The position numbers and the translations under genes are program-made. Source: Alphaproteobacteria bacterium (lineage in GTDB: Bacteria; Pseudomonadota; Alphaproteobacteria; Rhodospirillales; Rhodospirillaceae). From it: DNA of 64,000 nt. The notes under the pieces are model-generated. The model saw nothing but the letters and a program-made list of their open reading frames with translations. It did not search any database and was not told the DNA's origin. Location of the stretch: contig JAUVUZ010000002.1 in the NCBI GenBank assembly GCA_030604885.1, positions 62,001 through 126,000 on the forward strand, written 5' to 3'. Below are positions 15,210 through 31,840 of the stretch, piece after piece (position 1 is the first letter of the stretch; each line of letters starts with the position of its first letter).

Positions 15210-17687
15210 ATGCACAAGCCGGTCGAAGACTACCTCGGCGAGCCGCTGATCTCGGCGTTCGCCGACACCGAAAGCCTCAAGGCCGCCTTGGCGCGGTCGA
15301 TGATCCAGAACGTCGGGCGCTCGCCGGTGGGGGCGGATACGCGCGACTGGTTCCTCGCGCTCGCCAACCTGCTGCGGTCGGTGATGTCGGAGCGCAACGT
15401 CGTCACCTCGGCGCAGAACTACGGCCAGGGCAAGAAGCTGGTCTACTACCTTTCGATGGAATACCTGATCGGCCGCTCGCTGCAGAAGGTGCTGCTCGAC
15501 TTGGGCGTGATGGACATCACCCGCGAGACCCTGGCGGACCTGGGCCTCGATTTCGACGCGGTGCAGGAGCACGAGCCGGACGCGGCGCTCGGCAACGGCG
15601 GCCTCGGCCGCCTCGCCGCCTGCTTCCTCGACAGCCTGTTCACCCACGACTACCCCGGCATCGGCTACGGCATCCGCTACGAATACGGCATGTTCCGCCA
15701 GCGCGTCGCCGACGGCCAGCAGATCGAGCAGCCGGAGAACTGGCTGCGCTACGGCAACCCGTGGGAGGTGCCGCGGCCGTCGGTGATGTATCGCGTGCGC
15801 TTCGGCGGGCGGAACGCCTGCTGGCGCGACGCTGAGGGCAACGAGGTGTGCCAGTGGGTGGACGCCGACGAGGTGATGGCGATGGCGTTCGACAACCCGG
15901 TGTCGGGCTTCGACACCCCCACCGTGGGCAACCTGCGCCTGTGGTCGGCGCGGGCGACGCGGGAGTTCGACCTCTCCACCTTCAACCAGGGCAACTACGT
16001 CGAGGCGGTGCGCAACAAGACCCTCTCCGAAACCCTCTCGAAGGTGCTCTACCCCAACGACAAGAGCCAGGACGGCCAGGAACTGCGGCTCAAGCAGGAG
16101 TATTTCTTCGTCTCGGCGTCGTTGCAGGACATCCTCCACCGCTACCTGCGCAACCACGAGAACCTCAAGAACTTCCCCGAGCAGGTGGCGATCCAGCTCA
16201 ACGACACCCATCCGGCGATGGCGGTGGCGGAGCTGATGCGCCTGTTCATGGACGACCACGGCATGAGCTTCGAGGAGGCCTGGGCGCTCTGCACCCGCAC
16301 CTTCGGCTACACCAACCACACCCTGCTGCCCGAGGCGCTCGAAACCTGGCCCATCGACATGATCCAGGCGATCCTGCCGCGCCACCTGGAGATCATCTAC
16401 CAGATCAACGACGTGTTCCTGCGCGAGGTGCGGCGCATGTATCCGGGGGATTCGGCGATCCTGTCGCGGGTGTCGCTGGTGGACGACGCCACCCGGCGGA
16501 TTCGCATGGCGCATCTGGCGGTGGTGGGCAGCCACAAGGTCAACGGCGTCGCCGCCCTCCACACCAAGCTGCTGCGCGAGGGGCTGTTCGCCGATTTCGC
16601 GAAGATCTGGCCCGACAAGTTCGTCAACATGACCAACGGCATCACCCCGCGCCGCTGGCTGCGGCAGGCGAACCCGCCGCTCTCCGCCCTGATCACCGAG
16701 AAGATCGGCAAGGGCTGGGAGAAGGACCTCGACAAGCTGAAGCCGCTCGCCCGCCTCGCCGACGACGCCGAGGTGCGCCACCGCTTCCAGGAGATCAAGC
16801 GCGCCAACAAGGAACGGCTGGCGAAGATGATCGCCCAGTCGTGCGGCGTCACCGTCGATCCGGCGAGCCTGTTCGACACCCAGATCAAGCGCTTCCACGA
16901 ATACAAGCGCCAGCTCCTCAACGTGTTGCAGGTGATCGGCCGCTACAACCGGCTGAAGGAGAACCCCGCCAGCATCGCGGTGCCGCGCACCGTGATCGTC
17001 GCGGGCAAGGCGGCGCCGGGCTACGACATGGCGAAGCTGATCATCCGCCTGGTGCTCGACGTCGCCGAAACCCTCAACCACGACCGCGCCACCAACGGCA
17101 TGCTGAAGGTGGTGTTCGTGCCCGACTACAAGGTGTCGAGCGCAGAGATCCTGATCCCCGGCTCCGAGCTTTCGGAGCAGATCTCGACGGCGGGCACCGA
17201 GGCCTCGGGCACCGGCAACATGAAGTTCGCCCTCAACGGCGCCCTCACCATCGGCACCATGGACGGCGCCAACATCGAGATCCACGACGAGGTGGGGGCG
17301 GAGAACATCTTCATCTTCGGCCTCGACGTGGCGGGGGCGAAGGCGCTCAAAGCCGGGTCCTACGATCCGTGGGAATACTACAACGGCGACGCCGCCCTGC
17401 GTCAGGCCCTCGACATGGTGCGCAACGGCTACTTCTCGCCCAACGACCCGGCGCGCTACAAGCCGCTGGTGGACAGCCTGCTGCGCGGCGGCGACACCTA
17501 TCTGGTGCTGGCCGACTACGCCGACTACGTGCGCTGCCAGGACGAGGTGGACACGGTGTACCGCGACCCGGAGGAATGGACCCGCCGCGCCATCCGCAAC
17601 GTCGCCAACATGGGCAAGTTCTCCGCCGACCGCACCATCCACGGCTACGCCCGCGAGATCTGGGGCATCGAGCCGCTGGACGTGTGA
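15210..17687 (+). CDS. glgP: Glycogen/maltodextrin phosphorylase (GT35)
   Basis: 825 residues, as expected for the family (about 815). It cleaves terminal glucose from glycogen with phosphate, giving glucose-1-phosphate. The PLP-binding Lys is in EASGTGNMKFALNGALTIG near residue 672. Other signatures are LGNGGLGRLAACFLDS, YGIRYEYGMFRQ, QLNDTHPAMAVAELMR and MTNGITPRRWL. It follows glgA by 7 bases with AGGGTAGGAAAG as ribosome site. Pairing synthase and phosphorylase in one transcript means both arms of glycogen turnover are expressed together and must be balanced by metabolites. Confidence 0.97.
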   Translation: MHKPVEDYLGEPLISAFADTESLKAALARSMIQNVGRSPVGADTRDWFLALANLLRSVMSERNVVTSAQNYGQGKKLVYYLSMEYLIGRSLQKVLLDLGVMDITRETLADLGLDFDAVQEHEPDAALGNGGLGRLAACFLDSLFTHDYPGIGYGIRYEYGMFRQRVADGQQIEQPENWLRYGNPWEVPRPSVMYRVRFGGRNACWRDAEGNEVCQWVDADEVMAMAFDNPVSGFDTPTVGNLRLWSARATREFDLSTFNQGNYVEAVRNKTLSETLSKVLYPNDKSQDGQELRLKQEYFFVSASLQDILHRYLRNHENLKNFPEQVAIQLNDTHPAMAVAELMRLFMDDHGMSFEEAWALCTRTFGYTNHTLLPEALETWPIDMIQAILPRHLEIIYQINDVFLREVRRMYPGDSAILSRVSLVDDATRRIRMAHLAVVGSHKVNGVAALHTKLLREGLFADFAKIWPDKFVNMTNGITPRRWLRQANPPLSALITEKIGKGWEKDLDKLKPLARLADDAEVRHRFQEIKRANKERLAKMIAQSCGVTVDPASLFDTQIKRFHEYKRQLLNVLQVIGRYNRLKENPASIAVPRTVIVAGKAAPGYDMAKLIIRLVLDVAETLNHDRATNGMLKVVFVPDYKVSSAEILIPGSELSEQISTAGTEASGTGNMKFALNGALTIGTMDGANIEIHDEVGAENIFIFGLDVAGAKALKAGSYDPWEYYNGDAALRQALDMVRNGYFSPNDPARYKPLVDSLLRGGDTYLVLADYADYVRCQDEVDTVYRDPEEWTRRAIRNVANMGKFSADRTIHGYAREIWGIEPLDV

Positions 17688-20664: not shown

Positions 20665-21621
20665 CTATTCGGGGGCCGAGGCGGTGTCGAGGGTGAGGAC
20701 GTCCTCCCGCGACAGCTTGAGGGTCGCCGCGCGGACCAGGCTTTGCAGCTGCTCGGGGCCGGTGGCCGAGGCGATCGGCGCGGTGACGCCGTGGCGGCCG
20801 ATCAGCCACGCCAGCGCGATCTCCGCCGGGCTGGCGCCGGTGCGCGCCGAGACCTTGCCGAGGGCCTCGAGAATGCGGCCGCCGCGCGGGGTGAAATACT
20901 TGCCGAGGAACGGGTTGCGCTTGCTGCCCGCGATGTCGGCCGGGGTGGCGTATTTGCCCGAGAGGAAGCCGGAGGCGAGGCTGAAGTAGGTGACCACGCC
21001 GATCTCCTCCCGCGTCGTCAGCTCCCGCAGCGCGCCCTCGAAGCCCTGGCGGTCGTAGAGGTTGTATTCCGGTTGCAGCACGGCATAGGGGGCGAGGCCA
21101 TGGTGGCGCGCCACCGTCAGGCTTTCCTCCAGTTGCGCGGCGGAGAGGTTGGAGGCGCCGATGGCGCGCACCTTGCCCGCGCGGATCAGCCGGTCGAAGG
21201 CTTCGAGGGTTTCGGCGAACGGGGTGTTGGGGTCCGGCTTGTGGGCGAAGTAGAGGTCGATGCGGTCGGTTTGCAGGCGCTTCAGCGACCGCTCCACGCC
21301 CTCGGCGATCCAGCGCGCCGAGAGGCCCTTGGTCTCGCCGTCCTGCACCGAGCCGACCTTGGTGAAGATCAGCACCTTGTCGCGCTTCGCCGGGTTGGCC
21401 TTGATCCAGTTGCCGATGATCGTCTCGGACTCGCCGCCGCGGTTGCCCTCCGCCCAGTGGGAGTAGCTGTCGGCGGTGTCGATGGCGTTGAAGCCCGCGT
21501 CGACCCAGGCGTCGAGCAGGTCGAAGCTCGCGGCCTGATCGACGGTCCAGCCGAAGACGTTGCCGCCGAACACCACCGGCGCGGTGGCGAGGCCGGTCTT
21601 TCCGAGGGGGCGCGTTTCCAT
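20665..21621 (-). CDS. Aldo/keto reductase
   Basis: 318 residues, a TIM-barrel NADPH-dependent oxidoreductase. The tetrad is visible: Asp and Tyr in AIDTADSYSHW, Lys in VLIFTKVG and His in LYFAHKPDPNTP. GASNLSAAQL and the C-terminal cofactor region PIASATGPEQLQ are typical of the Tas/YajO-like AKR branch. The physiological substrate is unknown; such enzymes often detoxify aldehydes. The ATG has AAGGAC upstream. It is the first gene of a pair with the SDR downstream. Confidence 0.94.
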   Translation of the reverse strand: METRPLGKTGLATAPVVFGGNVFGWTVDQAASFDLLDAWVDAGFNAIDTADSYSHWAEGNRGGESETIIGNWIKANPAKRDKVLIFTKVGSVQDGETKGLSARWIAEGVERSLKRLQTDRIDLYFAHKPDPNTPFAETLEAFDRLIRAGKVRAIGASNLSAAQLEESLTVARHHGLAPYAVLQPEYNLYDRQGFEGALRELTTREEIGVVTYFSLASGFLSGKYATPADIAGSKRNPFLGKYFTPRGGRILEALGKVSARTGASPAEIALAWLIGRHGVTAPIASATGPEQLQSLVRAATLKLSREDVLTLDTASAPE

Positions 21622-21686: not shown

Positions 21687-22343
21687 CTAATGGAACGGGC
21701 GGCCGTGGCCCTGGGCGACCCGCTTCATCAAATGGGTGAGCCAGTCGCCGACGCTGCCGTAGAAGCTCCGCGCCGCCACCTCGTCGACGGCACGCTCCAG
21801 GGTGCGCTCCACCAGCCGGTCGGCGGCCTCCGGGTCGTGCGCGAGGTGGCGCGCGGTTTGGCGCAACTCGGGCAGCAGCGCCGCCACCTCGTCGCGTAGG
21901 CCGGTGGAGCGCCGCAGCAGGGCGCGCTTGATCGCGGGCCAGTCGTCGGTCTTGGCCAGCACCGGCGCGTGGGCGAAGGCGGGCGGTGGCGGCTCGTCGT
22001 AGGCGGTGTAGAACACGAACGGCACGCCCCGTTGCGCCAGGGCGACGGCCACCGGATAGGCGGTCTCGCGGCCGAGGTGGACGTCGAGCACCGCGCCGCC
22101 CACCTCGGACGCCGCCGCCAGCAGGGCGAGGGCGGCGTCGACGCTGTCGGCGGGGCCGATCACCGTGCCGCCGTCGTCGGCGATCTGGCGGGCGAGGTCC
22201 ATGGCGATCACCGCTTCGTCCTCCACCACCAGCACCGGCGCGGCGAGCCGCAGCGCGGTGCCGAACCCGGCGGGCACGACGACTCCCCCGTGGCCTCCGT
22301 GGGGTCCGGAGAACGAGGCGAAACGGATAGGGGAGGGGGTCAT
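21687..22343 (-). CDS. Receiver domain fused to a sigma2-like domain (inverted PhyR-like order)
   Basis: About 218 residues. Residues 35-150 are a receiver: VLVVEDEAVIAMDL, phospho-Asp in AVLDVHLG, the FATGUY-type motif PFVFYTAYDE and conserved Lys in VLAKTDD. The last 75 residues look like ECF sigma region 2: LLPELRQTARHLAHDPEAAD, then RLVERTLERAVDEV and GSVGDWLTHLMKRV. No region 4 or DNA-binding domain follows. PhyR has sigma-like domains first and the receiver last; here the order is reversed and only region 2 remains. The ATG at 22341-22343 has AGGA upstream. It lies 90 bases after ahpF on the same strand, hinting at an oxidative-stress link (inference). Confidence 0.72.
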   Translation of the reverse strand: MTPSPIRFASFSGPHGGHGGVVVPAGFGTALRLAAPVLVVEDEAVIAMDLARQIADDGGTVIGPADSVDAALALLAAASEVGGAVLDVHLGRETAYPVAVALAQRGVPFVFYTAYDEPPPPAFAHAPVLAKTDDWPAIKRALLRRSTGLRDEVAALLPELRQTARHLAHDPEAADRLVERTLERAVDEVAARSFYGSVGDWLTHLMKRVAQGHGRPFH

Positions 22344-22433
22344 CGCGAAGTGTCCTGCCTGAGGGGCCATGAACACCAACGCCGCGCCCCGGCGGAGGTT
22401 CCGGAGCGCGGCGCTGGGAAATCGCGCGCGGGG

Positions 22434-24017
22434 TCAGGCGGCGGCGGTGGCCGCGTCCGCGCCCTGGGTGCGGATCAGGTAGTCGAAGGCGGCGAGCGAC
22501 GCCTTGGCGCCGTCGCCCATGGCGATGACGATCTGCTTGAACGGCACGGTGGTGGCGTCGCCCGCGGCGAAGATGCCGGGGGCGCTGGTCTCGCCCCGCG
22601 CCGTCACCTCGATCTCGCCGCGCGGCGTCAGCGCCAGCGCGCCTTTCAGGAACTCGGTGTTCGGCACCAGCCCGATCTGCACGAAAATGCCGTCGAGATC
22701 CTGGCGGAACAGGCCCTTGGAGGTGCGGTCCTGGTAGGTGAGGCCGGTGACCTTGTCGCCGTCGCCGTGAACCTCGGTGGTGAGCGCCGAGGTGATCACC
22801 GAGACGTTCGGCAGGCTCGCGAGTTTGTCCTGCAACACCCGGTCGGCGCGCAGGGCGGCGTCGAACTCGATCAGCGTGACGTGGCCGACGATCCCGGCGA
22901 GGTCGATCGCCGCCTCGACGCCCGAGTTGCCGCCGCCGATCACCGCCACGCGCTTGCCCTTGAACAGCGGGCCGTCGCAATGGGGGCAGAAGGCGACGCC
23001 CTTGTTGCGGTATTCCGCCTCGCCCGGCACGCCCATCAGCCGCCAGCGCGCGCCGGTGGCGAGGATCAGCGCGCGGGTCTTGAGGCTGGCGCCGCCCGCG
23101 GTCTTCACCTCGATCAGCCCGCCCGGCGCCGCCGCCGGGATCACCGTCTCGATCTTCTGCAGGTTCATCAGGTCGACGCCGTTGGCCTTGACCGCCGCTT
23201 CGAACTGCGCCGCGAGCTTCGGCCCCTCGGTGTGGGAGACGGCGATGAGGTTCTCGATGCCGAGCGTGTCCTGAACCTGGCCGCCGACCCGCTCCGCCAC
23301 CACGCCGGTGGAGAGGCCCTTGCGCGCCGCGTAGATCGCCGCCGCCGCGCCCGCCGGGCCGCCGCCCACCACCAGCACGTCGAACGGCGCCTTGGCCGCG
23401 AGCTTGGCGGTTTCGCGCTCGGCGGCGCCGGTGTCGAGCTTGGCGAGCAGTTCCTCGAGGCCCATGCGCCCTTGGGCGAACGGCTTGCCGTTGAGGAAGA
23501 TCGCGGGCACCGCCATCACCTGGCGCGCCGCCACCTCGTCGGGGAACAGGCCGCCGTCTATGGCGACGTGGCGGATGCGCGGGTTGAGCGCGCTCATCAG
23601 GTTGAGGGCCTGGATCACGTCCGGGCAGTTCTGGCAGGAGAGGGAGAAATAGGTTTCGAAGCGGTAGTCGCCGTCGAGCGCCTTGATACGGTCGAGGGTC
23701 TCCGGCTCCGCCTTGGCGGGGTGGCCGCCGACGTGCAGCAGCGCCAGCACCAGGGAATTGAACTCGTGGCCCATCGGCAGCCCGGCGAAGGCGACCGAGA
23801 CGTCGGTTCCGGCGCGGACGATGGCGAACGACGGCTTGCGGGCGTCCGCGTCGTCGCGGCGCAGGGTGACGCTGGCGGAGAGGGCGGCGATCTCGCCCAG
23901 CAGTTCCCACAGCTCGCGGGATTTGTCGCCGTCGTCGAGGCTGGCGACGAGTTCGACCGGGTGGACGATGTGGGCGAGATAGGCGCGGAGCTGGTCCTGA
24001 AGCGCGGCGTCGAGCAT
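22434..24017 (-). CDS. ahpF: Alkyl hydroperoxide reductase subunit F (NADH:peroxiredoxin reductase)
   Basis: 527 residues, matching AhpF. The N-terminal tandem thioredoxin-fold domain carries the redox pair in [10 protein letters not shown] (near residue 128), and the thioredoxin-reductase-like part has the FAD loop [19 protein letters not shown], the CPHC disulfide in [13 protein letters not shown], the NADH loop [12 protein letters not shown] and the final [11 protein letters not shown]. It passes electrons from NADH to AhpC. The ATG at 24015-24017 has AAGGGATC upstream; an in-frame ATG 18 bases earlier is less likely. It follows ahpC by 100 bases. Confidence 0.97.
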
Positions 24018-24117
24018 GGGGGATCCCTTCGGCAAGACGAATGCCGCGCGCGGGGGCGCGGCAGGGCAGGGCGGGGGCGCCGGGGCCGCGCTTTCCGCGC
24101 GGCGCCGGCGCGAAAGG

Positions 24118-24805: not shown

Positions 24806-26974
24806 TCAGCGTTCCTTGCGCAGCGCCTCCACCCCGGCGCGGATCAGCGGGTGCGCCGCCAGGGAGGAGACCTCCTCGGTCATCCGGCGGCGCCAGTTGG
24901 GGTGTTCGTCCACCGTGCCGGGCAGGTTGATCTGCGTGGTTTCCACCAGCAGGTCGCCCAGGTTCACCACCAGCAGGCGCGAGGCGGTGCGCGCGGCGTA
25001 GCGCAGCACCGCGGCGGTGAGCGCGGCGAGCGCCCCCCGGGCGGAGGAGGGCGGCGGCTCGGGCAGCAGGTGCTGGTCCTCGAGGGCCGCCACCAGCGCC
25101 TCCCGCTCCGCCGCGCGCCCGGCGCTCTCGCGGTTCGCCACCTCCGCGTCGGCGTAGATGCCGATCTCGGTGCGCAGGGCGAGGTCGAGGCCGAGCCAGT
25201 GCCCGGCGATGGTCGGCATGTCGTGGGTGGTGGGGGTGACGAGGGCGAGCGGCGGATACGCGTCCGGCCGCTTGAACAGGCCCGAGTCCCAGCGCTCGAA
25301 ATAGAGCACGCGGTACGACAGCAGCCGCTCCGCCGCCATCCGCCCGCGGAAGTCGTCGGGCACGGTGCCGAGGTCCTCGCCGATCACCAGACAGCGGTTG
25401 CGGCGGCTTTCCAGCGCCACGATCGCCAGCAGGTCGTCGAAGGGATAGGAGACGTAGGCCCCCCCGGCGACGCCCAGGCCCTGGGGAATCCAGAACAGCC
25501 GCATCAGCCCCATCACGTGGTCGAGGCGCAGCGCCGCGGCGTGGCGCATGTTGGCGCGCAGCAGCGCCACGAACCCGGCGTAGGCGGTTTCGCGCATGCG
25601 GTGGGGGTTGGGCGGCGGCAGGCCCCAGTCCTGGCCCACCGGGCTGAAGGCGTCGGGCGGCGCGCCCACCGACATGCCGCGCACGATGTCGCCCTGGTCG
25701 GCCCAGGCGGAGGCCCCCTCGGCGTTGACGCCGACGGCGAGGTCGCGATAGAGGCCCACCTGCGGCACCGCCTTCGCCGCCGCCGCCAGTTGCTCCTCCG
25801 CCAGCCATTGCAGGAAGGCGTGGAAGGTGACGCGCTCGGCGTTGGCCACCGCGAACGCCTCCACCTCCGGCGACTCCGGGTCCTGGAAGGGTGCGGGCCA
25901 GGCGGTCCACGGCAGGCCGCCCATGGTCTCGTGCAGCGCCGAGAACTCGGCGAAGCGCCGCAGCCGCGCCCCTCCGGCGACGCAGAATGCCTCGAACGCG
26001 GCGTTCTCCGGCGCGTCCGGCCGTTGCAGCAGGTCGTCGTAGATCAGCGCCAGGGCGCGGTGCTTGATGTCGCTCACCCGGGGGTAGTCGATCAGTTCGC
26101 AGCGCCGCGCCGCCGCGAGCGCCGCCTCCACCTCCGGATCGGCGCGGAACGCCTGGAACGCCGGGCTGTGCGCCGCGAACGGAACCGCGTCCACGTCGAT
26201 CATCAGCGGGTTGACGAATTCCGCGTTGGAGGGGGAATAGGGGCTGCACGCGTCGGGCCACGCCGGGAACAGCGCGTGCAGCGGATTGATGCCGACGATG
26301 CGGGCGCCCAGGCCCTCCGCCTGGCGCATCAGCTCGGCGAGGGCGGTGAAGTCGCCCACCCCCCAGTCGCCCGCGCGGCGCAGGGCGTAGACCTGCGCGG
26401 CGAGGCCCCAGCGGCGCTCGCCCGCCTCCATCCACGGCGGCACGTAGGCGGCGGCGGGGGCGACGATCAGCGGGCAGCGGGTCGCCCGCCCCTCGAAGCG
26501 CACCACCAGCGCGTGGTAGCCCTCGGGCAGCATCGGCGGCAGCGGCAGGCGGCGGCAGGCGAGCGGAATGCCCTCGATCTCGCCGGTTTCGACGAGCGCC
26601 AGGTCCGACGCCACCGCCTCCCCCGACACCGCGTGGCCGTCTTCCAGTTCCACCGTCCACTCCAGGGTTTCGGCGGCGGCGCGCTCGGCAAGCGACACCG
26701 GCACGCTGAAGCCCTCGGGCGCGCCGCCGCGGCGCAGCACCGTCACCGGCGGCAGCGGCTGGCGCCAGCGCCGCTCGCGCCACAGGCGCAGGCTCTGCAT
26801 CGCCTCGGCGTCGGTGGCGGCGGGAATGCCCATGGCCGCCAGCAGCACGCGGCGGGTTTCGTCGGAGGCGACGTGCAGGGTCCCGGCGATGTCCCAGTAG
26901 GACTCGTGGATGCCCGCCTCGGCGGCGAGTTCCCGCAGGGCGTCCTCGGGGGCGGGCAGATCGACTGGACTCAC
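24806..26974 (-). CDS. malQ: 4-alpha-glucanotransferase (amylomaltase, GH77)
   Basis: 722 residues. It transfers maltodextrin units between chains and so recycles the short glucans left by phosphorylase and debranching enzyme. The family signatures are seen: [45 protein letters not shown]-type region, [17 protein letters not shown] (nucleophile Asp), [14 protein letters not shown] (catalytic Glu) and [14 protein letters not shown]. About 200 N-terminal residues form the extra domain seen in long bacterial MalQ. The start is GTG, three bases after the glgX stop with AAGGAG upstream. It is the last gene of the pgm-glgB-glgX-malQ row. Confidence 0.96.
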
Positions 26975-26977
26975 GGC

Positions 26978-29170
26978 CTACTCCTTTTCCGGGCCGAACA
27001 GCATCGGCGGCAGCGAGGGATCGACGGCGCCCCGTCGCGGGCAGATTTCCGACTGGCCGAGGATCACCAGCGCCCGCCCCTGCAACGGGTAGATCTCCCC
27101 GGCGCGGTAGAGGGGCTGGCGCTCGTCGGCGAACGGCAGCGGGTAGGCGGTGTCCACCATCGCCTTCCAGCAGCGGCCGAGTTCGGCGCCGGGCAGGCGG
27201 AACGGCACCGCGCCGTAATGGGCGTTCATCAGCACCAGGAACGGTTCGTCGTCGAGCACGTCGCCGCGCCGCGACATGTATTCGCCGCGCTCGCCCACCA
27301 CGTGCCAGCCGAAGCAGCGGGCGTAGGACAGGCTCCAGTCTTCCGACGCCAGCTCGCCGCCGCGCGGGGAGAGCCAGGTGATGTCCTTCACCGGCCCCTT
27401 GCCGAGGGTGCTGCCGTGGAAGAAGCGCGGCCGCCGGAACGCCGGGTGCTCGGCGCGGAAGCGCGCCATCCAGCGCACGAAGTCGAGGAAGTCGCGGTCC
27501 TCGTCGGAGGGCGGGCTCCAGTCCATCCAGGAGATTTCGTTGTCCTGGCAATAGGCGTTGTTGTTGCCGCCCTGGGAGCGGCCCAGCTCGTCGCCCGCGT
27601 TGAGCATCGGCACCCCTTGCGACAGCATCAGGGTGGCGACGAGGTTGCGCTTCTGGCGATAGCGGGTGGCGCGCACCGCCGGGTCGTCGGTGGGGCCTTC
27701 GACGCCGCCGTTCCACGAGAGGTTGTAGTCCGAGCCGTCGCGGTTGTTCTCGCCGTTGGCCTCGTTGTGGCGGCGCTCGTAGGAGACGAGGTCGGTGAGG
27801 GTGAAGCCGTCGTGGCAGGTGACGAAGTTGATCGAGGCGCGGGGGCGGCGGCCCTGGTGCTCGAACAGGTTCGACGAGCCGGTGATCGCCGAGGCGAAAT
27901 CGCCCATCACCCCGGAATCGCCGCGCCAGAACTGCCGCACGCGGTTGCGGTAGCAGTCGTTCCACTCCGACCACCCGGGCGGAAAGCGGCCGAGCTGGTA
28001 GCCGTTCGGCCCCACGTCCCACGGCTCGGCGATCAGCTTGACGCGCGAGAGCACCGGGTCCTGCCGCACCGCCGCGAGGAACGGACTCTCCTGGCCGAAG
28101 GCGTCGGGCGCGCGGGCGAGGGTGGTGGCGAGGTCGAAGCGGAAGCCGTCCACCTGCATCACCTCGACCCAGTAGCGGAGCGAGTCCATCACCATCTGCA
28201 GCACCCGCGGATGCGCGAGGTTGAGGGTGTTTCCGCAGCCGGTGAAGTCGGTGTAGTAGCGCTTGTCGTCGCGGTTGAGGCGGTAGTACGAGGCGTTGTC
28301 GATACCGCGGAAGCTGTAGGTGGGGCCGAGGTGGTTGCCCTCGCCCGAATGGTTGTAGACCACGTCCAGCACCACCTGGATGCCCGCGTCGTGCAGCAGG
28401 TTCACCATGGTGCGGAATTCGGCGATGTTGCGCCCCGAGAGGTAGCGCGGCGCCGGGGCGAAGAAGTTGTAGCTGCTGTAGCCCCAGTAGTTGGTGAGGT
28501 TCTTCTCCACCAGGTGCTGCTCGTCGGCGATGGCGTGCACCGGCAGCAGCTCGACGACGTTGACGCCGAGGGACTTGAGGTGCGCGATCACCGGCGCGGT
28601 GCCCAGCCCGGCGAAGGTGCCGCGCTTCGCCAGCGGCACCTGGGGGTGGCGCATGGTCATGCCGCGCACGTGCATTTCGTAGATCAGGGTGTCCTGCCAG
28701 GGCACGTCGGGCGGGGCGGGGGAATGGCGGCCGGGAAGGCCCTCCAGCACCACGCCCTTGGGCATGTAGCGGGCGTTGTCCTGGCGGTTGAACGAGAGAT
28801 CCTGCTTCGGGTGGTCGAGGCGGTAGGCGTAGTTGTTGCGATGCCAGAGAATCTCGCCCGAGACCGCCCGCGCGTAGGGGTCCACCAGCAGCTTCGCCGG
28901 GTTGAAGCGGTGCCCGGCGGAGGGTTCGTAGGGGCCGTGGACGCGGTAGCCGTAAAGCTGGCCGGGCCGCACGTCGGGGAGGAAGCCGTGCCACACCTGA
29001 TCGGTGTATTCGGGCAGGCGGACGCGCTCCAGCTCCTTCTTGCCGGTGGCGTCGAACAGGCACAGCTCGACCTCGGTGGCGTTGGCGGAGAACAGCGCGA
29101 AGTTGGTGCCCTTGCCGTCCCAGGTCGCCCCGAGCGGATACGGGCGGCCGGGCCAAACCACGCTTCCCAT
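26978..29170 (-). CDS. glgX: Glycogen debranching enzyme (GH13, isoamylase type)
   Basis: 730 residues. An N-terminal CBM48 domain (residues 1-150) precedes the GH13 barrel. The nucleophile Asp is in VDGFRFDLATTLAR and the acid Glu in VKLIAEPWDVGPNGYQLG, with the third Asp in NFVTCHDGFTLTDLV. It cuts alpha-1,6 branches from phosphorylase-limit dextrin. The ATG follows the glgB stop after three bases and its stop precedes malQ by three bases, so translation is likely coupled through the three genes. Confidence 0.97.
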   Translation of the reverse strand: MGSVVWPGRPYPLGATWDGKGTNFALFSANATEVELCLFDATGKKELERVRLPEYTDQVWHGFLPDVRPGQLYGYRVHGPYEPSAGHRFNPAKLLVDPYARAVSGEILWHRNNYAYRLDHPKQDLSFNRQDNARYMPKGVVLEGLPGRHSPAPPDVPWQDTLIYEMHVRGMTMRHPQVPLAKRGTFAGLGTAPVIAHLKSLGVNVVELLPVHAIADEQHLVEKNLTNYWGYSSYNFFAPAPRYLSGRNIAEFRTMVNLLHDAGIQVVLDVVYNHSGEGNHLGPTYSFRGIDNASYYRLNRDDKRYYTDFTGCGNTLNLAHPRVLQMVMDSLRYWVEVMQVDGFRFDLATTLARAPDAFGQESPFLAAVRQDPVLSRVKLIAEPWDVGPNGYQLGRFPPGWSEWNDCYRNRVRQFWRGDSGVMGDFASAITGSSNLFEHQGRRPRASINFVTCHDGFTLTDLVSYERRHNEANGENNRDGSDYNLSWNGGVEGPTDDPAVRATRYRQKRNLVATLMLSQGVPMLNAGDELGRSQGGNNNAYCQDNEISWMDWSPPSDEDRDFLDFVRWMARFRAEHPAFRRPRFFHGSTLGKGPVKDITWLSPRGGELASEDWSLSYARCFGWHVVGERGEYMSRRGDVLDDEPFLVLMNAHYGAVPFRLPGAELGRCWKAMVDTAYPLPFADERQPLYRAGEIYPLQGRALVILGQSEICPRRGAVDPSLPPMLFGPEKE

Positions 29171-31776: not shown

Positions 31777-31812
31777 CGCGTTCCCGGCCGGTTATCATCG
31801 GTCGGGAACGCG
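31777..31812 (-). terminator. Hairpin terminator after pgm
   Basis: CGCGTTCCCGGCCG (31777-31790) pairs with CGGTCGGGAACGCG (31799-31812), 13 of 14 bases, around an eight-base loop. On the minus strand it starts 28 bases after the pgm stop and is followed by TATATTT. The T-run is weak, but the stem is long and perfect for most of its length. Confidence 0.6.
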
Positions 31813-31840
31813 AAAAAATCCAGACGTTCCTCCGCCGGGG

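Follow-up and report, generated by a model that had tools for sequence, protein, structure and literature searches.

A receiver-sigma2 protein with the domain order opposite to that of PhyR, a candidate phosphorylation-controlled partner of NepR in Alphaproteobacteria

In the literature examined, sigma-factor mimicry by a response regulator is represented by PhyR, whose contact regions for the promoter and for core polymerase have been called degenerate (PMC8103513, partial text). The protein analysed here, REC-sigma2, shares with PhyR a receiver and a sigma2-like domain, an EcfG-type promoter in the same genome and, by our proposal, NepR as a target. PhyR has sigma2-sigma4 first and the receiver last, whereas REC-sigma2 has the receiver first, sigma2 last and no sigma4. 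With the FATGUY single-domain response regulators, which we take to comprise SdrG, Sma0114 and the LovR/MrrA type, it shares the receiver motif and the nearest solved receivers by sequence, and it differs from them in possessing a sigma2 tail. With EcfG (ECF15) it has the sigma2 domain in common, by profile and by fold; without sigma4, with a shortened end of sigma2 and with a receiver in front, it is incomplete as a sigma factor. Mext_0132, a sigma2-only relative of EcfG compared here by its description, likewise has sigma2 without sigma4, and no receiver is mentioned in the available part of that source (PMC4814048, partial text).

The gene lies in a 64,000-nucleotide stretch of DNA from an alphaproteobacterium of the Rhodospirillaceae (hereafter the window), on the minus strand from an ATG at 22343 to a stop codon at 21687-21689 (Table 1). 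Its product of 218 residues runs from a FATGUY-type receiver to a sigma2 domain and the stop, as a preliminary description had proposed together with the reversal of the PhyR order; both proposals are upheld by the receiver motif and by the Pfam, HMM and shuffle, hhalign and fold tests given below. A longer alternative frame with a TTG start begins at 22379, inside the predicted EcfG-type promoter, and the ATG is preferred for that reason. All 15 family members match the NCBIfam PhyR model (NF006623) at E<=0.1; the window protein scores 54.8 bits on it, where the cut-off is 240, and all 13 NCBIfam families listed for this protein stay below their own cut-offs. By eye, an AhpF-like C-terminus also precedes the gene in two relatives of the same genus (G001, G002), and the aldo/keto-reductase-like gene is also near it in three (G001, G003, G006). 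Genes resembling glycogen phosphorylase, 4-alpha-glucanotransferase and GlgX, again by eye, flank the ahpCF/REC-sigma2 stretch at 15210-17687 (plus), 24806-26974 (minus) and 26978-29170 (minus), and two Ensifer relatives of the REC-sigma2 gene also adjoin glgA with glgX or treZ.

Table 1. Features of the REC-sigma2 locus, in window coordinates, and unannotated NepR-like open reading frames beside relatives, in coordinates of the locus named
Feature	Position	Strand	Evidence
REC-sigma2 protein, 218 aa + stop	21687..22343	-	ORF and translation; relatives at full length
FATGUY-type receiver, residues 35-142, predicted phospho-acceptor D87	21918..22241	-	Pfam below cut-off; PDB sequence and fold matches; conservation
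Sigma2-like domain, residues 147-211, made of one short and three long helices, without sigma4	21711..21905	-	Pfam, HMM/shuffle/hhalign, fold prediction
EcfG-type promoter GGAAC-N16-CGTT, 34 nt upstream of ATG	22378..22402	-	Exact match to PMC7083833 consensus; orthologues; shuffles
Upstream neighbour, AhpF-like	22434..24035	-	ORF and translation; identity by eye
Downstream neighbour, aldo/keto-reductase-like	20665..21621	-	ORF and translation; identity by eye
NepR-like small ORF, L152	6354-6599	-	
NepR-like small ORF, L150	5175-5465	+	
NepR-like small ORF, L151	4070-4360	-	
NepR-like small ORF, L114	3246-3446	+	
NepR-like small ORF, L115	3243-3446	+	

The receiver scores 23.6 bits on Pfam Response_reg, under the cut-off of 30.2. 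It bears the motif PFVFYTAYD together with an acidic pair (E41/D42), D87, T113 and K131, to which we assign the roles presumed for receivers, with D87 as phospho-acceptor. E41, D42, D87 and K131 are invariant in an alignment of 15 family members, and by these conserved residues the domain is predicted to be phosphorylatable. Among solved structures its sequence comes closest to three single receivers (2lpm, 2msw and 5ieb), with PhyR chains ranking below them; we take 2lpm and 5ieb to be FATGUY receivers. The fold match to SdrG (5ieb) has a Z of 14.8. When the whole-protein model (pLDDT 69.8, with helices at 149-168, 171-187, 189-194 and 198-210) was used for a fold search, the receiver occupied all of the best 50 rows and the sigma2 part was barely probed, and the tail was therefore folded and searched separately.

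Sequence, profile and predicted fold agree in making this tail a sigma2 domain. Pfam PhyR_sigma2 (PF22029) gives 27.4 bits, narrowly over its cut-off of 27, and is matched at E<=0.1 by 14 of 15 members, some of them under the cut-off (25.4 bits in G001, 20.9 in Mesorhizobium). We made HMMs of 10 PhyR and 19 EcfG-type sigma2 stretches from relatives, the latter gathered by similarity to the genome's EcfG and in some cases uncertain as EcfG. On these the window tail reaches 34.8 bits (EcfG-type) and 22.3 bits (PhyR), against top scores of 9.6 and 8.8 bits among 3,800 shuffles of family tails. On the EcfG profile 18 of 19 family tails lie above every shuffle; the tail from P. marcusii, at 6.4 bits, does not. 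The alignment of the family profile by hhalign gives 98.9% with EcfG sigma2 (E 3e-17, 66 columns) and 97.0% with PhyR sigma2 (E 1e-10, 61 columns). Modelled alone by AlphaFold2 from a three-row alignment, the tail has a pLDDT of 86.9 and helices at 2-22, 26-42, 44-49 and 53-67. Foldseek ranks first among PDB entries the Bartonella EcfG/RpoE bound to NepR (5uxx; E 0.16, probability 1.00, TMq 0.80 and 0.84 for two chains). By title, 29 of the first 31 rows are sigma factors, transcription initiation complexes or PhyR, the exceptions being an RNA-guided transcription complex at rank 12 and a DnaD-domain protein at rank 25; no E-value in this search falls under 0.001. VIA-align gives Z 11.9 for SigH (73 residues, 2.1 A), 11.5 for 5uxx (73 residues, 2.0 A) and 9.8 for PhyR 3t0y (70 residues, 2.8 A). 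Because Z values under about 13 may, by the program's own warning, reflect only the common arrangement of helical bundles, we give more weight to the succession of sigma2 matches and to the sequence tests. Across the alignment of 15 the tail keeps the motif LLPxLRxxAR...AADRLVERTLERAI...WL. The protein ends a few residues past the last sigma2 helix, with the end of sigma2 shortened relative to EcfG, and in all 18 full-length members the reading frame stops there with no sigma4 following. A chance match or a decayed tail was considered and rejected on the profile, shuffle and fold tests. The structural comparison with sigma2 and the profile search against PhyR and ECF families, both put forward in the preliminary description, thus came out on the side of sigma2.

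That description had also spoken of an inverted PhyR, and as a statement of descent this was not supported. In a quick tree of 99 receivers over 112 columns, collected with a profile of the REC-sigma2 family, the nine PhyR receivers are united in a single clade (SH-aLRT 96). Outside it are the 18 from REC-sigma2 proteins, which fall together, with one other receiver among them, and group with single-domain and hybrid-kinase receivers. A permuted PhyR was rejected on this tree, which has two label changes for the REC-sigma2 receivers and leaves room for a single origin of all 18. Since the receivers are outside the PhyR clade and 17 of 19 tails score higher on EcfG-type than on PhyR sigma2, the sequences are better described as a FATGUY receiver joined to an EcfG-type sigma2 than as a rearranged PhyR. 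On Rhizobium plasmids (L117 3438-4350, L119 2610-4348), receivers of the nearest clade occur beside a sigma-70 gene or within a helix-turn-helix protein, without a sigma2 tail.

The architecture recurs in the window's genus, in Hyphomicrobiales and in Rhodobacterales. Full-length relatives within the genus are 62, 56 and 48% identical to the window protein (G001, G002, G003) and those outside it 30-39%; in the alignments A1 and A3 the proteins of G001 and G002 start upstream of the promoter, probably at untranslated starts. Among 61 genomes near the window's, a stop-free match over receiver and tail is confined to the genus, in which G006 contributes only a tail, a fragment at a contig end; in a few others the match reads across a stop and takes in part of the tail, or is limited to the tail, as in G060, where it is by eye a sigma factor. 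Considering the best eight candidates per genome, a scan of the order found the full-length protein in at least 4 of 317 genomes, plus the G006 fragment, and a broader profile found it in at least 4 of 385 genomes of a class sample (the window's, G331, G349 and G574). A scan of genome contigs returned ten loci, two of which cover receiver and tail and are the same as G002 and G003. The plasmid search gave matches in 183 records, 16 of which have a single place covering 80% or more of the query. Drawing on this search and another one, we examined 11 plasmid loci (Ensifer, Sinorhizobium, Mesorhizobium, Shinella, Paracoccus and Ketogulonicigenium) as well as three loci in genomes outside the genus, the share of 11 of 14 on plasmids being a reflection of the collection searched. 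With the four genus members these make 18 full-length proteins. The plasmid annotations of the gene are 'response regulator', 'hypothetical protein', 'histidine kinase' or none.

A role in stress, earlier suggested from the position of the gene, gains from its promoter. The published EcfG promoter is GGAAC-N16-CGTT (PMC7083833, partial text), and a perfect motif is present in all four genus copies with upstream DNA (the window, G001, G002, G003), which as orthologues are not independent trials. In the latter three, GGAAC-N16/17-CGTT stands 44, 44 and 54 nt before the first in-frame start after the motif (ATG, GTG and ATG). Dinucleotide shuffles of the four upstream regions held the motif in 12 (window), 2, 8 and 35 of 20,000 cases; the shuffled 120-nt regions ended at starts up to 11 nt off, the distances of 34-54 nt being the exact ones. 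The whole window has four perfect motifs of that spacing. As a positive control, phyR of the window's genome also has an EcfG motif upstream (C18 33785, minus). Two opposed and overlapping EcfG-promoter-like motifs, GGAAC-N15-CGTT on each strand, occur at window positions 31805-31830. Upstream of the REC-sigma2 gene in the 14 loci outside the genus there is no perfect EcfG promoter; loose motifs occur in four, 471 nt (L107), 270 nt (L109), 66 nt (L110) and 75 nt (L152) ahead, the last sitting inside the NepR-like ORF.

The preliminary description was right that no nepR or ecfG is near the gene in the window: the phyR-nepR-ecfG locus of this genome, with a canonical PhyR, is on another contig (C18). 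Within the genus REC-sigma2 occurs in five genomes, counting G006 by its fragment, and all five have phyR and nepR. None of the three genes was found in G004, G005 or G007, of which G004 is only 74% complete. Two candidates for PhyR in these genomes were rejected, a 260-aa frame of G005 with its receiver first and another output domain, and a PhyR_sigma2 match of G007 that sits in a sigma-factor-like frame. As far as sequence goes, promoter, co-occurrence with phyR and nepR, and the NepR-like neighbours described next tie REC-sigma2 to the general stress response. Near the canonical ecfG there is also a single-domain receiver (134-aa open frame; G000 C18:34652-34969, minus, locus L003), a possible SdrG-like component of the stress relay.

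Outside the genus a NepR-like small ORF adjoins the gene in 11 of 14 loci, nine by a fixed second-helix pattern matching within 900 bp of the gene and two added by eye where the pattern missed at one position (L107, L110); the independent cases are fewer than 11, as four loci are from Ensifer/Sinorhizobium and two from one genus. No such ORF was found in three Paracoccus loci (L109, L116, L118). The pattern was drafted after most examples were known, the small ORFs of L108, L110 and L112 being previously unread. It matches nine times in 25.2 kb near the gene versus once in the 86.8 kb of these loci that lie farther away. Of its seven matches in 532 kb of other loci, six are canonical nepR and, as the loci overlap, represent four distinct genes; it also matches NepR of the window's genome. 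The small ORFs share with NepR and NepR2 the second-helix motif P-x-R-x-x-x-L-x-x-x-L-x-x-A and differ from them in that Pfam NepR, which matches the NepR of the window's genome as a control, scores one of ten, at 20.5 under the cut-off of 25.7, and in that 7 of 11 have by eye no clear first helix. A profile of the 11 small ORFs found, at E<=1e-4 in the class sample of 385 genomes, none beyond its three genomic members, and as these belong to the profile only the absence elsewhere is informative. In the five genus genomes with nepR its top match is the canonical nepR in three (G000, G002, G003), weakly (E 0.09-0.32), and canonical nepR is not reported in G001 and G006. Five of the ORFs, in two plasmid stretches without a gene table and three genomes without annotation, are given in Table 1. 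EcfG-like (by eye) genes of the sigma-70 family adjoin the REC-sigma2 gene in L109, L110 and L111, and other neighbours in several loci are glycogen or trehalose genes, catalases and CheR-type or PAS proteins. No NepR-like ORF stands beside the gene in the window's genus. A NepR-like gene hidden next to the window gene was rejected, the pattern having no match in the window and the small-ORF profile finding none in this genome better than the canonical nepR, itself weak. In this genome canonical NepR alone exceeds the Pfam cut-off. The neighbours outside the genus make NepR, earlier suggested as a possible partner, the likely target.

We favour, at a probability of roughly 0.57, the reading that REC-sigma2 is a phosphorylation-controlled trap for NepR that would use only the sigma2 half of the interface. 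EcfG would transcribe the gene from the promoter seen upstream, and a histidine kinase, probably of the HWE/HisKA2 type, would phosphorylate D87, as the conserved residues suggest. By analogy with PhyR, phosphorylation would expose the sigma2 domain; binding of NepR, which we infer along with the sign of the effect, would then keep NepR off EcfG and raise or prolong the stress response alongside PhyR. The protein trapped would, in the window's genus, be the single canonical NepR encoded elsewhere in the genome, and in relatives outside it the small NepR-like protein encoded next door. The second helix of CnrY binds sigma2 (PMC7406223, partial text), and CnrY-CnrH superimposes on PhyR-NepR (PMC4598750, partial text). 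This analogy, argued from CnrY and not from NepR itself, would have a sigma2-only mimic contact NepR at its second helix, which is also what the small neighbour ORFs keep best. The trap is supported by the sigma2 identity of the tail, 5uxx as its top fold match, the promoters in the genus, the co-occurrence with phyR and nepR, the NepR-like and EcfG-like neighbours and the kept receiver residues. It is weakened by the genus copies without a NepR-like ORF alongside, the Paracoccus exceptions, the Pfam scores below cut-off, the P. marcusii tail and the imperfect promoters outside the genus. The absence of sigma4, which PhyR has, also counts against it, because NepR might then be bound too weakly for EcfG to be displaced.

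The same absence predicts weaker trapping, and an EcfG promoter suits negative feedback as much as positive; REC-sigma2 might be an EcfG-induced damper, its receiver draining phosphate from stress kinases, or its lone sigma2 docking on NepR without displacing EcfG or competing with PhyR for NepR. Brakes of the general stress response are known, namely NepR2 and PhyR-binding paralogues of NepR (PMC6599016, PMC4814048, partial texts). We nevertheless judge damping unlikely: a phosphate sink has no need of a conserved sigma2 domain, and a NepR-like ORF next to the gene in most outside loci suggests a dedicated pair. Quite improbable is a receiver of the single-domain type with a remnant tail that has no function of its own, to which the low identity outside the genus and the one tail at shuffle level would be congenial; the core motif is kept across the window's genus, Hyphomicrobiales and Rhodobacterales, the tail has a predicted fold with pLDDT 87, and 19 of its columns are invariant among the four genus members. 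Least credible is a decoy for RNA polymerase that binds the beta-prime clamp helices through sigma regions 2.1/2.2 and blocks sigma loading under receiver control, for the retained helices, which we take to be these regions, and the sigma factors within RNA polymerase complexes among the closest fold rows accord with it, but the NepR-like neighbours and the joint presence of REC-sigma2 and nepR in the genus are left unexplained.

Extending the trap to the family as a whole, we propose tentatively, at somewhat short of even odds, a second and independently built class of phosphorylation-controlled anti-anti-sigma proteins, made of a FATGUY receiver and an EcfG sigma2. Outside the genus its partner would be a shortened NepR-like protein, of which chiefly the helix that binds sigma2 is left. 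With both partners lacking the sigma4 half, such a pair would be a minimal partner switch and, beside extra EcfG-like genes on plasmids, possibly the missing regulator of non-canonical EcfG unresponsive to PhyR/NepR. A receiver-sigma2 protein was not found described in open-access full texts, including the available parts of PMC12148442, PMC8103513, PMC8999054, PMC4598750, PMC4814048, PMC6599016, PMC7083833, PMC3892343, PMC3925955 and PMC7406223; novelty is claimed against the open texts searched only.

Where NepR and PhyR do not explain the control of additional EcfG paralogues, some of them plasmid-borne (PMC3892343, PMC4814048, partial texts), REC-sigma2 would offer a candidate answer. In the records read, the small NepR-like ORFs carry either no annotation or the label 'hypothetical', and similar regulatory modules could therefore be going unnoticed. 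If the proposed mechanism is true, a second type of mimic, of separate origin from PhyR, would show how little of a sigma factor suffices to trap NepR.
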